Made by a program: the position numbers and the translations under genes. A stretch of 64,000 nt of DNA from Aliiroseovarius zhejiangensis (lineage in GTDB: Bacteria; Pseudomonadota; Alphaproteobacteria; Rhodobacterales; Rhodobacteraceae): the NCBI RefSeq assembly GCF_014656375.1, contig NZ_BNCH01000001.1, positions 372,001 through 436,000 of the forward strand. Direction: 5' to 3'. Below the pieces are notes generated by a model that saw only the letters and a list, made by a program, of their open reading frames with translations, did no database searches and was not told the DNA's origin. Shown here in pieces: positions 43,058-47,308 of this stretch. Each line of letters begins with the position of its first letter. The first letter of the stretch is position 1.

Positions 43058-43084
43058 AACCCCCGCCACCGTGCGGGGGTTTTT
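43058..43084 (+). terminator. Intrinsic terminator of thrS
   Basis: AACCCCCGC and GCGGGGGTT pair over nine bases with a 6-base loop and run into five T. It begins 17 bp after the stop. Confidence 0.9.
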
Positions 43085-43156: not shown

Positions 43157-43444
43157 AATCACGCTGCCAACGGCATGTTCTTTGTAATTTTTCGCATCAC
43201 ACCCAGCCGCGGATTTGACAATCATGTCGCTCCTGACACACCGAAAGGCGCGAAAACCCCTTGAATCCCGGCGCTTGGCCGCTGGGCTGATCGAATTTCT
43301 GCAGGGGCAAAACAACTGCTGCTGTTCACTCGCGTTAACGGAGGCGTGAATTACGCGTTCGTGAGTGGAGCGTGTGACCACCCACCCCTTACCTTTCCCC
43401 TACCGCCCCTCAGAGGCGTGAACGAAAAACCGAAAGGAAACTCG

Positions 43445-43753
43445 ATGTCCAACAACATGAAAACCGTCGCCGTTCTTGGTGCTGTTTCGGCCGCTGTGGC
43501 TGCCAATGCCGCCCCGGCCTTCGCCGATGGCGAGCAGGAAAAATGCTTCGGCGTGGCCCTTGCCGGTCAGAATGACTGCGCCGCCGGTCCTGGCACCACA
43601 TGCGCCGGCACCTCGACCGTCGATTACCAGGGCAATGCCTGGAAACTGGTTCCAGCCGGAACGTGCGAAACAATGGAAATCACCGATGCATCCGATGGCG
43701 AAAAGCGCATGGGCTCGCTGGAAGCGTTGGAGCGTGACCTGCCCGCCAGCTGA
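43445..43753 (+). CDS. bufA: Bufferin-type RiPP precursor (DUF2282)
   Basis: 102 aa from the ATG after AAAGGAAA. A signal peptide (about 1-27, ending AAPAFA) leads to a mature part with exactly four Cys at 34, 45, 53 and 74. The core matches the DUF2282 bufferin pattern: [37 protein letters not shown] and GTC, then an acidic 28-residue tail. In Caulobacter, bufferins carry cysteines converted to thiooxazole by a DUF692 enzyme, are exported and bind copper. The modifying enzyme lies next door. A stem-loop follows the stop. Copper as the metal here is inference from the family. Confidence 0.9.
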
Positions 43754-43771
43754 TCCGGGTCTCTTGTAACT

Positions 43772-43802
43772 GGGGGCTGGCCATGTGTGATGGCCACCCC
43801 TT
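43772..43802 (+). promoter_or_regulatory. Intercistronic stem-loop between bufA and bufB
   Basis: GGGG-(GC)-TGGCCAT, a GTGTG loop and ATGGCCA-CCCC form an 11-bp stem with a small bulge, followed by only two T. It lies 19 bp after the precursor stop. It probably stabilises the precursor mRNA or partly ends transcription, so more precursor than enzyme is made. Confidence 0.55.
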
Positions 43803-43847
43803 CCCGCCTTCGGCACCCGGTCCCCGACCGTTTCAATGGAGCTTTCA

Positions 43848-44717
43848 ATGCGCGACGTTCAGCACGACAACAGCCTGCCAATCGGGGCGGGTGTCGGATA
43901 CAAGCCACAGCATTTTGCCGCGCTGACCGATGATCCCGGCAGTGTAAGCTGGCTTGAGATCCACGCCGAAAACTTCATGGGCGATGGTGGCCGTCCTTTG
44001 GCGCAGTTGCGTCATCTGGCCGAACGTTTCCCCATCTCGGTCCATGGGGTTGGCCTGTCCATCGGCGGCGAAGAGCGACTGGACCCTGAGCATCTGGCCC
44101 GCCTGAAAAAACTGACGGATTGGCTCAACCCGGCGATGTTCTCTGAGCATCTGGCATGGTCGACCCATGACGGCGCGTTTCTGAACGACCTGCTGCCGCT
44201 GCCCTATACGGCCGAGACCCTGTCGCGTGTCACCGCCCATATCGATCAGCTGCAAGACCATCTTGGCCGCAAAATGCTGCTTGAGAACCCGTCCTCCTAT
44301 CTGGCATTTGTTGGAAGCACATGGTCCGAACCGGACTTCCTGCGCGAAATCGCCCGGCGCACGGGCTGCGGGCTGCTGTTGGACGTGAACAACGTCTTTG
44401 TGTCCGCCACCAATCTGGAATTCGACCCGCGCGCCTATATCGACGCCTATCCGCTTGATCTGGTGGAAGAATTTCATCTGGCCGGTCATGACGAAGACGC
44501 AGACGAGCTTGGGCGCAAACTGCTGATCGACAGCCATGGCAGGCCGGTCGACGAACCGGTTTGGACCCTGTTCGATCACGTGATCGCCCGTGCGGGCGCC
44601 CGCCCGGCCCTTGTGGAATGGGACAACGACGTACCCGAATGGGACGTGTTGGAAGCCGAGGCTGCACGCGCCACGCAGCATATGAAACCCGCATTAGCCG
44701 CAGCGGTGTCCGCATGA
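43848..44717 (+). CDS. bufB: DUF692 multinuclear non-heme iron oxidase (bufferin maturase)
   Basis: 289 aa from ATG 43848 with GGAG six bases upstream; the ATG at 43836 lies before that site. The MNIO fold binds two or three irons: EIHAENF (Glu41, Asn42 region), His66 in VHGVGLS, SEHLAW, LLENPSSYL, LLDVNNVFVS, HLAGH, DSHG and LVEWDNDVPEWD are all kept. It is predicted to oxidise precursor Cys to heterocycles in the cytoplasm, before export. It overlaps the partner gene by four bases. Confidence 0.93.
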   Translation: MRDVQHDNSLPIGAGVGYKPQHFAALTDDPGSVSWLEIHAENFMGDGGRPLAQLRHLAERFPISVHGVGLSIGGEERLDPEHLARLKKLTDWLNPAMFSEHLAWSTHDGAFLNDLLPLPYTAETLSRVTAHIDQLQDHLGRKMLLENPSSYLAFVGSTWSEPDFLREIARRTGCGLLLDVNNVFVSATNLEFDPRAYIDAYPLDLVEEFHLAGHDEDADELGRKLLIDSHGRPVDEPVWTLFDHVIARAGARPALVEWDNDVPEWDVLEAEAARATQHMKPALAAAVSA

Positions 44718-45502
44718 ACGATAGCGTAACCTTTTCAAGCACGGGCGACGTAACCGTCACGCAAACAGCGTTTCGCAAGGCCCTGCTTGATCCGCAACAA
44801 GACGTGCCAGAAGGCTTGACCAACCCCGACGGCCAGCATGCCGACAAACGCTTCTCGGTCTATCGCAACAACGTGGCGCACGGGTTGTCCGAAGCCATGC
44901 TGACCGGCTTTCCGGTGCTTGCCAAACTGGTCGGTGACGAATTTTTCCGTGAAATGGCGAAGGTTTACCTGCGTATTCACCCACCAGCCTCGCCCTTGAT
45001 GATGCATTACGGGGCGGCCCTGCCCGGATTTCTGGAGAGCTTTCCCGGCACGCTGCACCTGAAATATCTGCCTGATGTGGCCCGGTTGGAGCTGGCCTTG
45101 CGCCGCGCTTACCACGCTGCCGATGCCCTGCCCATTGACCCCACCCTTCTGACCCGACTTGACCAGCCCGCCCTGATGCGCGCGCGCCTGCATATGTCAC
45201 CCGCTTGCGAGGTGCTGATCACCAAGTGGCCCGCTAAGGCGATCTGGGATTACAACATGAAGGATGGACCGCAACCCACCGGTGGCGCGGAAAATATCCT
45301 GATCAGCCGTGTTGGCTTTGATCCGGTGGCCGAGCGGTTGCCGCAGGGCGGCGCGCCGTTCGTCAGGTCCCTGATCAAAGGGCGCAGCTTCGGCACCGCG
45401 TTGGGGTTGGCCACAGCTGACACGCCCGATTTCGACCTGACCGAAACGCTAAGCGTTCTGATCGCGACGCACGCGATAACCGGCGCCGACAAACCAGACT
45501 AA
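44714..45502 (+). CDS. bufC: DUF2063 partner protein of the MNIO enzyme
   Basis: 262 aa. The N-terminal HvfC/BufC-type DUF2063 domain is seen in FRKALLDPQQDVPEGL, FSVYRNNVAHGLSEAMLTGFP and HPPASPLMMHYGAALPGFL. These proteins bind the precursor leader and hand it to the DUF692 enzyme. A second, mostly beta domain follows from about residue 150. The start overlaps the bufB stop (ATGA). Confidence 0.92.
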   Translation: MNDSVTFSSTGDVTVTQTAFRKALLDPQQDVPEGLTNPDGQHADKRFSVYRNNVAHGLSEAMLTGFPVLAKLVGDEFFREMAKVYLRIHPPASPLMMHYGAALPGFLESFPGTLHLKYLPDVARLELALRRAYHAADALPIDPTLLTRLDQPALMRARLHMSPACEVLITKWPAKAIWDYNMKDGPQPTGGAENILISRVGFDPVAERLPQGGAPFVRSLIKGRSFGTALGLATADTPDFDLTETLSVLIATHAITGADKPD

Positions 45503-45522
45503 CACTTCGGAAGGATACCGTC

Positions 45523-46071
45523 ATGCGCGCCTTGGCAAACCTCTATAACCCGCTTGTCAATCTGGCCGAGCGGCTGGCCCCGGCGACCTTGCCAACGCTG
45601 GCCCGGTTCACCTTTGCCGCCACACTGCTGGGGTATTTCTGGGCCTCTGCTCTAACCAAGACCGGTGACGGCGTGCTGGGCATTTTCCAGCCCTCGCTGG
45701 GCGCCTATGCACAGATATTCCCGAAGGCGATGGAGGCTGCGTCCTATGATGTCGGCCAGTTGGGCCTGTTTCACTGGGCGGTGGTGGTGGCCGGCACCCT
45801 GGCCGAGTTCATCCTGCCGCTGCTGATCACCGTCGGGCTTCTGACACGTCTGGCCGCGCTGGGAATGATCGGTTTTGTCGCCGTGCAAAGCCTGACAGAC
45901 CTTTATGGCCATGGCGGCATTGATCAGCCCGAAACGCTGGGCGCCTGGTTTGACCGGATCCCCGACAGCGTGATCCTGGATCAAAGGCTGTTCTGGATGG
46001 TCGTGCTGGTGACTTTGCTGCTGAAAGGCGCAGGGCCATTGTCGGTCGACCGGCTGCTTGGCATCCGCTGA
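45523..46071 (+). CDS. DoxX-family membrane protein of the bufferin operon
   Basis: 182 aa, about four membrane helices (FTFAATLLGYFWASALT, FHWAVVVAGTLAEFILPLLI, RLAALGMIGFVAVQSL, LFWMVVLVTLLLKG). DoxX proteins commonly close DUF2282-DUF692-DUF2063 operons. The role is unproven; respiratory-chain or redox support in the inner membrane is the usual suggestion. It starts 20 bp after bufC. Confidence 0.88.
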   Translation: MRALANLYNPLVNLAERLAPATLPTLARFTFAATLLGYFWASALTKTGDGVLGIFQPSLGAYAQIFPKAMEAASYDVGQLGLFHWAVVVAGTLAEFILPLLITVGLLTRLAALGMIGFVAVQSLTDLYGHGGIDQPETLGAWFDRIPDSVILDQRLFWMVVLVTLLLKGAGPLSVDRLLGIR

Positions 46072-46469: not shown

Positions 46470-46805
46470 TCAGGCGGTGTGCTCCAACCAGTCCTCGCGC
46501 GTTTTTGCGTCCCAACCTAAAGTCAACTTTTCGCCGTCCTCGATCACGGGACGCTTCATAAGGGTCGGGTGTTCTGCAAGCAAATCAAGGGGATCAACTG
46601 TGCGCTCAGCCTCGCTCAGCCCGCGCCAAGTGGTGGAGCGCCGGTTGATCAGCGCCGCGCCGAACGCCTGATGAAACCGCGCCAGATCCGCCGGGGCGAC
46701 CCCATCCGCGCGCACGTCCACATACTCGACCACGGCCCCTGCCCCTTCCAGGGCCTTCACCGCCTTGCGGCAGGTATCACAGGTCTTCAACCCCCAAAAA
46801 CGCAT
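46470..46805 (-). CDS. Spx/ArsC-family thioredoxin-fold protein
   Basis: 111 aa from ATG 46805. The N-terminal LKTCDTCRKAVKAL has a CxxC pair, and VDVRADGVAPADLARF, RRSTTWRGL and PTLMKRPVIEDG follow the ArsC/YffB pattern. The arsenate-reductase Arg triad is not convincingly seen, so a glutathione-linked oxidoreductase role like YffB is more likely than arsenate reduction. Confidence 0.85.
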   Translation of the reverse strand: MRFWGLKTCDTCRKAVKALEGAGAVVEYVDVRADGVAPADLARFHQAFGAALINRRSTTWRGLSEAERTVDPLDLLAEHPTLMKRPVIEDGEKLTLGWDAKTREDWLEHTA

Positions 46806-47089
46806 CAATCCCGTCCTTCTGTCATGGTCCCGTTGCAAGCGGGCTGCACCCTGCTGCACGACGCCTGCCCGATGCCTATATGCCCCGATCAGGCCGGAAA
46901 CGGAAGGACGCCGATTGATGCCCATTGCCCCGGACCAAAAAGGAATCCCTTGCTTTTTTCAGAACATGGCCCAAATCTTAGGGTGTAAGACAGCACTATC
47001 TACCGCCTCCTTCCCGGCAGTCGGACGATACCTGACTGTACGATGAAGGCCTCGCACGTTGCGGGTGCCCATACCAAGGAGAGACGGAA

Positions 47090-47308
47090 ATGGCCGACAA
47101 GCAAAGCGGCACCGTAAAATGGTTCAACACCACCAAGGGCTATGGTTTCATCGCCCCCGAAGCGGGCGGCAACGATGTGTTCGTGCACATCTCGGCGGTC
47201 GAACGCTCGGGTCTCACAGGCCTCGCCGACAACCAAAAGGTCCGCTATGACCTGCAAGAGGGCCGCGACGGGCGCCAATCAGCCGTGGACCTTGAACTGG
47301 TCAGCTGA
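47090..47308 (+). CDS. Cold-shock-domain protein
   Basis: 72 aa OB-fold protein that binds single-stranded RNA/DNA. RNP1 is KGYGFIAPE and RNP2 is DVFVHISAVE. RBS AAGGAGA. The gene stands alone with a 284-bp leader region, as is usual for regulated csp genes, and has its own terminator. Confidence 0.95.
   Translation: MADKQSGTVKWFNTTKGYGFIAPEAGGNDVFVHISAVERSGLTGLADNQKVRYDLQEGRDGRQSAVDLELVS

Follow-up and report, generated by a model that had tools for sequence, protein, structure and literature searches.

A conserved Buf1-type bufferin operon in Aliiroseovarius zhejiangensis and a predicted tandem operator upstream of bufA

The window analysed here is a stretch of 64,000 nucleotides (nt) from Aliiroseovarius zhejiangensis (assembly GCF_014656375.1, contig NZ_BNCH01000001.1, positions 372,001 to 436,000), and at its positions 43445-46071 it carries four forward-strand genes that make up a Buf1-type bufferin operon, an ordinary and well-kept member of an already described family. 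The first gene, bufA (43445-43753), encodes a Buf1 bufferin precursor of the DUF2282 family with 102 amino acids (PF10048, E 1.3e-25, 89.6 bits at a cut-off of 22.4). It is followed by bufB (43848-44717, with an alternative in-frame ATG possible at 43836) for a bufferin maturase of 289 amino acids belonging to the multinuclear iron enzymes (MNIO, DUF692; PF05114, MbnB_TglH_ChrH, E 9.5e-105, 350 bits, cut-off 25) and, overlapping it by four bases, by bufC (44714-45502) for a DUF2063/RRE-type partner of 262 amino acids (PF09836, E 5e-25, 88 bits, cut-off 27.2). The last operon gene (45523-46071) encodes a DoxX-type membrane protein of 182 amino acids. BufB is also recognized by the NCBIfam model for bufferin maturases (NF050167, MNIO_BufB) with 377.3 bits at a cut-off of 310, while staying under the cut-offs of the HvfB, ApyH, MbnB and ChrH models. 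An earlier note, made from the letters of this DNA alone, had proposed a bufferin-type operon of a Roseobacter-group bacterium comprising a secreted DUF2282 precursor with four cysteines, a DUF692 enzyme with kept iron-site motifs, a DUF2063 partner and a DoxX protein in this order; curated family models, iron ligands, partner fold and gene order agree with this proposal, as does the genus of the host. Only the DoxX component stands in part, since its position is as stated whereas its sequence scores are weak (PF07681 22.7 bits versus a cut-off of 23.6; HvfX 23.7 bits versus 80), so that this label leans on gene position.

For judging conservation, a set of named loci was compiled from the best 80 of 575 matches to a query built from the Aliiroseovarius family itself; these loci are mutually related and mostly from Rhodobacterales. 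As named loci and family genomes overlap (L117/G015 and L158/G025), the counts of the two sets are kept separate. In the named set, the DoxX-type gene was found in 73 of 79 loci. The genome of the window itself has a single DUF2282 gene and a single MNIO gene, and the two genes occur together in 33 of the 37 family genomes, which argues against a chance pairing of bufA and bufB; the one genus member without the operon (G012) is missing both. Besides, one genome of 77% completeness (G047) shows an MNIO gene without a DUF2282 match, which may indicate another precursor type or a gap, and at L108, L120 and L098 (G027) two tandem bufA genes precede a single bufB.

The iron ligands of BufB were assigned by alignment with the solved TglH chain, using the TglH iron ligands described in PMC10880893 as reference, and correspond to H66, H101, E146, D179, N182, H210, D228, H230 and E257. 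All nine are identical in 77 of 77 BufB sequences including the one from the window, the alignment being restricted to proteins with the expected length (76 of 78 loci). The same length rule left 64 of 78 loci for BufC. By sequence, BufC gives only a chance match to solved structures (0.33). Its structure model (262 residues, predicted local distance difference test score, pLDDT, of 94.3) resembles chain A of TglHI, and the fold search with this model returned three PDB matches at E ≤0.001, namely the TglHI entries 8hi7_A and 8hci_A as well as 3dee, the latter being the structure that underlies the description of the PME type 1 partner family in PMC12452194. For BufA, no solved relative was found by sequence at E 1, and its structure model, with a mean pLDDT of 50, was too poor and remained unused.

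In BufA, the cysteines are located at positions 34, 45, 53 and 74, and these columns are invariant in 43 aligned precursors. A signal peptide comprising residues 1-27 (43445-43525, forward strand) and ending on APAFA was judged by eye, its hydrophobic pattern being conserved in the same 43 precursors. The last cysteine is followed by a C-terminal tail of 28 residues with a net charge of -5 (43667-43750, forward strand), which the earlier note had singled out as acidic and as a possible recognition or follower part. The tail as such is present; however, it turns out to be an ordinary precursor end, since a length of 27-28 residues is found in 65 of 79 named precursors and conservation concerns the terminal GSLEALxRDLP motif rather than the acidic stretch. 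Across the named precursors, the net charge of the tail varies from -6 to +2 (median -4) and its acidic middle is variable, whereas all 79 carry G[SA]L or GSM, and in 78 of them [RK][DN][LIVMP][PA] is found close to the C-terminus. Precursors from the wider phylum have shorter tails, and GSL was recognized at 13 of 29 loci, of which two or three were misread or missed by the pattern. The BufA tail could be a second recognition part. In this context, preliminary results mentioned in PMC12452194 have the signal peptide form part of the recognition sequence, and the account of DUF2282 precursors in a survey of recognition elements gives no clear motif for them (PMC12710340).

5' of the operon, the alignment of the DNA preceding bufA within the genus reveals one outstanding block, in which TNACR-N4-YGTGA occurs twice with a period of 15 and is then followed by RTGG. 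In the window, this predicted operator (43336-43368) is a tandem of 14-bp inverted repeats, with site 1 (TAACGGAGGCGTGA) at 43336-43349 and site 2 (TTACGCGTTCGTGA) at 43351-43364, the RTGG letters falling on 43365-43368; both sites are called on genus and named-locus conservation. A weak extra half site, TCAC, lies 10 bp upstream of site 1 (43326-43329, forward strand; T 38, A 41 and C 41 of 62 aligned loci). In site 2, the letters of GTGA are found in 56-61 and the T of RTGG in 58 of these 62 loci. Within the genus, the predicted operator is present at 19 of 19 loci with enough upstream DNA, 108-158 bp before the start codon. For the named loci, a score of at least 13 of 18 at -140 to -80 before bufA was counted as present, and 77 of the 80 could be evaluated, as L142 was dropped because the precursor pattern found none and L138 and L162 because their upstream DNA was too short. 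With this rule, 62 of 77 loci are positive, among them the SigF-type locus L168, whose match looks like chance. When only the 71 named loci without SigF nearby are considered, the tandem site occurs at period 15 in 61 and at period 16 in 3, that is in 64 of 71. At L098 and L120, the operator with period 16 stands ahead of the first of two tandem bufA genes.

Controls indicate that such scores are rare elsewhere. Applying the position rule, 6 of 1408 other 250-base windows from the same loci pass; without it, a score of 13 is reached in 14 of 1392 such windows and, among resampled sequences, in 26 of 3080. With a degenerate composite pattern drawn from the logo of the aligned named loci, four family genomes added only once the motif had been defined score 15-17 and 27 other loci 9-14. 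In a whole-genome search of ten genomes allowing up to two mismatches, all nine genomes with bufA show the composite site upstream of this gene and at no other place, and G012, the genome without bufA and bufB, shows none. At three mismatches, four further places come up across the ten genomes, and the G008 site is additionally hit in reverse orientation.

Further downstream, at a fixed distance 3' of the predicted operator, a -10-like hexamer TAnnnT is found (TACCTT at 43390-43395, forward strand; T 37, A 39 and T 46 of the 62 aligned loci), with no match to a -35 box; likewise, a sigma-70 scan listed no promoter upstream of bufA. The box at fixed distance without a -35 element suggests an activator-dependent promoter, in which the centres of the two sites would precede the likely transcription start by about 45 and 60 bp.

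In Caulobacter, the corresponding operon is reported to be driven by SigF from GTAACC-N16-CGAA (PMC3511200). In the genome of the window, NrsF (PF06532) gave no match in a search that did detect the Caulobacter control, and a SigF-type promoter of the form GTAAC[CG]-N15-18-CG[AT] was not found in the 420 nt upstream of bufA. Of the 37 family genomes, 3 carry NrsF, always adjoining bufA. A side observation concerns L153, where sigF and nrsF follow bufA in the same orientation instead of lying divergently ahead of it. Nine SigF-type loci are informative on how the two arrangements may be related. In five of them a single palindrome, TCAC-N6-GTGA, precedes GTAAC-N16-CGAA by 5-6 nt; two others carry, at a distance of 5 nt, TCAC-N6-GCGA, a relaxed form defined post hoc with the sequences already seen, and two have neither. 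From base composition, the chance of the exact palindrome at one of four gaps is about 6e-5 per locus. Among 11 further loci with an extracytoplasmic function (ECF) match, three genomes of the same class (L235, L244 and L255) show by eye a similar palindrome 11-12 nt upstream, ending on GTGT in two of them, and 8 are without it. Since SigF-type relatives keep the single palindrome close to their -35 box, the plain reading of these sequences would be that one factor, an old partner of SigF, may now be working through a doubled site where SigF/NrsF are gone. The joint proposal, according to which the Rhodobacterales bufferin operon was rewired from SigF/NrsF to a new transcription factor at a tandem TNACR-N4-YGTGA operator present in full only before bufA, this factor being the old SigF partner, and GSLEALxRDLP of BufA being the sequence that the BufC RRE domain recognizes, is offered tentatively, as we would put its chance somewhat below even.

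As to the protein binding there, the upstream block might be bound by a copper-responsive response regulator of the OmpR family, of CusR, CopR or AgrR type. The 14-bp inverted repeat of the general form TNAC-N6-GTNA is indeed present upstream of the promoter, at 43336 and at 43351, and its 5-4-5 geometry together with a direct half-site repeat upstream equals the arrangement of the E. coli CusR box TGACAAnnTTGTCA as given in PMC11195947. The AgrR box is likewise described as ATKACA-N4-TGTMAT with a flanking half site and a copA2 footprint from -74 to -40 (PMC7380067), and the predicted operator is similarly positioned ahead of the -10 box. The 14-bp core inverted repeat, four free central bases and a flanking half site are thus common to these boxes and the window. 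In contrast to the CusR and AgrR boxes, however, the predicted operator consists of two complete repeats that follow each other with a period of 15-16 bp, and its letters are GC-rich, the inner positions being G/C and not A/T. Moreover, none of 10 genomes encodes a copper response regulator that exceeds the TIGR01387 cut-off of 279.2 bits; regulators near the cut-off (241-261 bits) exist in G008, G023 and G029, whereas the best match in the genome of the window reaches 190.2 bits, yet the operator is present there. This genome encodes seven OmpR-type regulators, and a 9-of-9 site is found upstream of none of them. Two have an 8-of-9 site upstream, which was not counted as evidence. Two of the seven pass the PhoB and CtrA models, and the best TIGR01387 match is the one passing as PhoB. 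On balance, such a regulator appears doubtful as the binding protein. UzcR of Caulobacter was considered as a further candidate. At L213 (G000, contig C2, at about 389600), a pair of genes for an OmpR-type regulator and a kinase follows a small gene whose product has a twin-arginine-like signal.

By analogy with the characterized family members, the following route may be proposed for the window operon. BufA would be made with a Sec signal peptide, and BufB as multinuclear iron enzyme, together with BufC as RRE-type partner, would probably convert Cys 45 and Cys 53 to 5-thiooxazoles in the cytoplasm. After export of the peptide, a disulphide would be formed between Cys 34 and Cys 74, and the product would then bind excess copper in the periplasm. 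Expression would proceed from the operon's own activator-type promoter, with a transcription factor binding the tandem 14-bp repeats and either replacing SigF/NrsF or originally joining them. This scheme is modelled on Buf1 precursors, described in PMC12452194 as DUF2282 proteins with four cysteines, the central two modified and the outer two forming a disulphide, and encoded in a core cluster of precursor, MNIO, DUF2063 and DoxX genes; the window operon fits every sequence-visible Buf1 trait in that description. The Caulobacter precedent for copper-chelating peptides with cysteine-derived thiooxazoles, mentioned in the earlier note, is likewise in print (PMC12452194), and it is from the family that we infer the periplasmic metal buffer proposed in that note.

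The same operon might also answer to another metal or to oxidative or sulphur stress, the peptide then buffering that metal or acting as a stress protein. Induction by chromate and cadmium is reported for relatives in Caulobacter (PMC3511200, PMC8224329) and induction by gold and silver for relatives in C. metallidurans (PMC8224329), and the presence of DoxX is taken as a hint of other stresses (PMC12452194). Caulobacter Buf1, however, is described as binding both Cu(I) and Cu(II) and as helping growth in excess copper (PMC12452194), and disruption of sigF is reported to result in copper sensitivity (PMC8224329), making a role outside copper improbable in our view. Least probable of all is that the upstream block represents an RNA element with two leader hairpins or a part of an ECF promoter: although folding of each 14-bp dyad could give a hairpin of five pairs around a loop of four bases, and the letters TAAC and CGTT of the window recall ECF boxes, the hairpin was rejected as unlikely because pairing within the arms is not conserved (of 62 loci, 25 have a standard pair at pair 2 of site 1 and 10 at the outer pair of site 2) and Rfam gave no match at gathering score but two weak ones (22.6 bits where 42 are required and 21.2 where 80 are required), while the conserved TNAC and YGTGA blocks are 20 nt apart versus 16 nt in the SigF promoter, NrsF is missing from the genome, and the SigF-type candidate was rejected with the negative search of the 420 nt.

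Several points weigh against a copper-buffering operon switched by the tandem operator, the results on TIGR01387 and on the seven OmpR-type regulators being among them. Narrower site patterns also hit other places, among them an exact match elsewhere in G011, and in G023 a one-mismatch match elsewhere is better than the site before its own bufA, which has two mismatches. The tandem site is lacking at 7 of the 71 SigF-less loci, including 4 of the 5 not located behind thrS. The DoxX score, furthermore, is just below the PF07681 cut-off. Finally, an EGKCG-type system of Microbulbifer was reported as undetected at 0.1-0.2 mM copper, its authors hesitating on a protective role (PMC12538549), and the gig operon of C. 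metallidurans is described as having no effect on copper resistance (PMC8224329); hence, copper protection is not universal in this group of ribosomally synthesized and post-translationally modified peptides. Even so, it is considered very likely that the locus is best explained as a whole by a Buf1 bufferin operon with an activator-type promoter, its predicted tandem operator replacing or once having joined SigF/NrsF.

Among the closest known systems, the Caulobacter vibrioides Buf1 operon CC3254-CC3257, which comes with sigF and nrsF, shares the order DUF2282, DUF692, DUF2063 and DoxX (PMC3511200) as well as the four cysteines, the MNIO and the DUF2063 partner. In contrast to Caulobacter vibrioides, the window operon has no adjoining sigF/nrsF and its genome no NrsF, it shows tandem inverted repeats instead of GTAACC-N16-CGAA, and its precursor tail is longer and bears GSLEALxRDLP. 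The gig operons of Cupriavidus and Legionella, compared by literature description only, are described as bufferin clusters as well (PMC12452194). Captophorins (fontiphorin, oxazolin, gonophorin and bulbicupramide) are related in combining an MNIO with a DUF2063 partner, 5-thiooxazoles and copper binding according to PMC13097082 and PMC12538549. Their precursors have EGKCG repeats, whereas the window precursor is a DUF2282 protein with four spaced cysteines, and BufB and BufC remain under the HvfB (236.5 versus 360 bits) and HvfC (37.8 versus 142 bits) cut-offs, respectively.

Upstream of the operon lies thrS, a linkage found in 14 of 20 fetched neighbourhoods and in 67 of 79 named loci. A terminator-like hairpin with a T run after thrS (43059-43084, forward strand), identified by eye, would separate the buf transcript from thrS; it is not listed in a terminator scan of the window. 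On the other side, genes for an ArsC/Spx-like reductase and a cold-shock protein (46470-46925 and 47090-47308) adjoin the buf operon in most thrS-linked neighbourhoods. Since MNIO/DUF2063 clusters of Ruegeria have already been noted (PMC12538549), bufferin-type clusters in the Roseobacter group are not new.

Hence, the window operon adds one more well-kept bufferin to a described family, and the linkage points to a bufferin copper-buffer system inherited vertically behind thrS in most sampled marine Rhodobacterales. Its regulation is less ordinary than the operon itself, and the conserved operator and the conserved precursor end are the parts of use to specialists. The precursor end is a concrete candidate for what the recognition domain of BufC reads, and the predicted operator makes it testable how bufferin genes may be switched without SigF/NrsF and which protein senses the metal.

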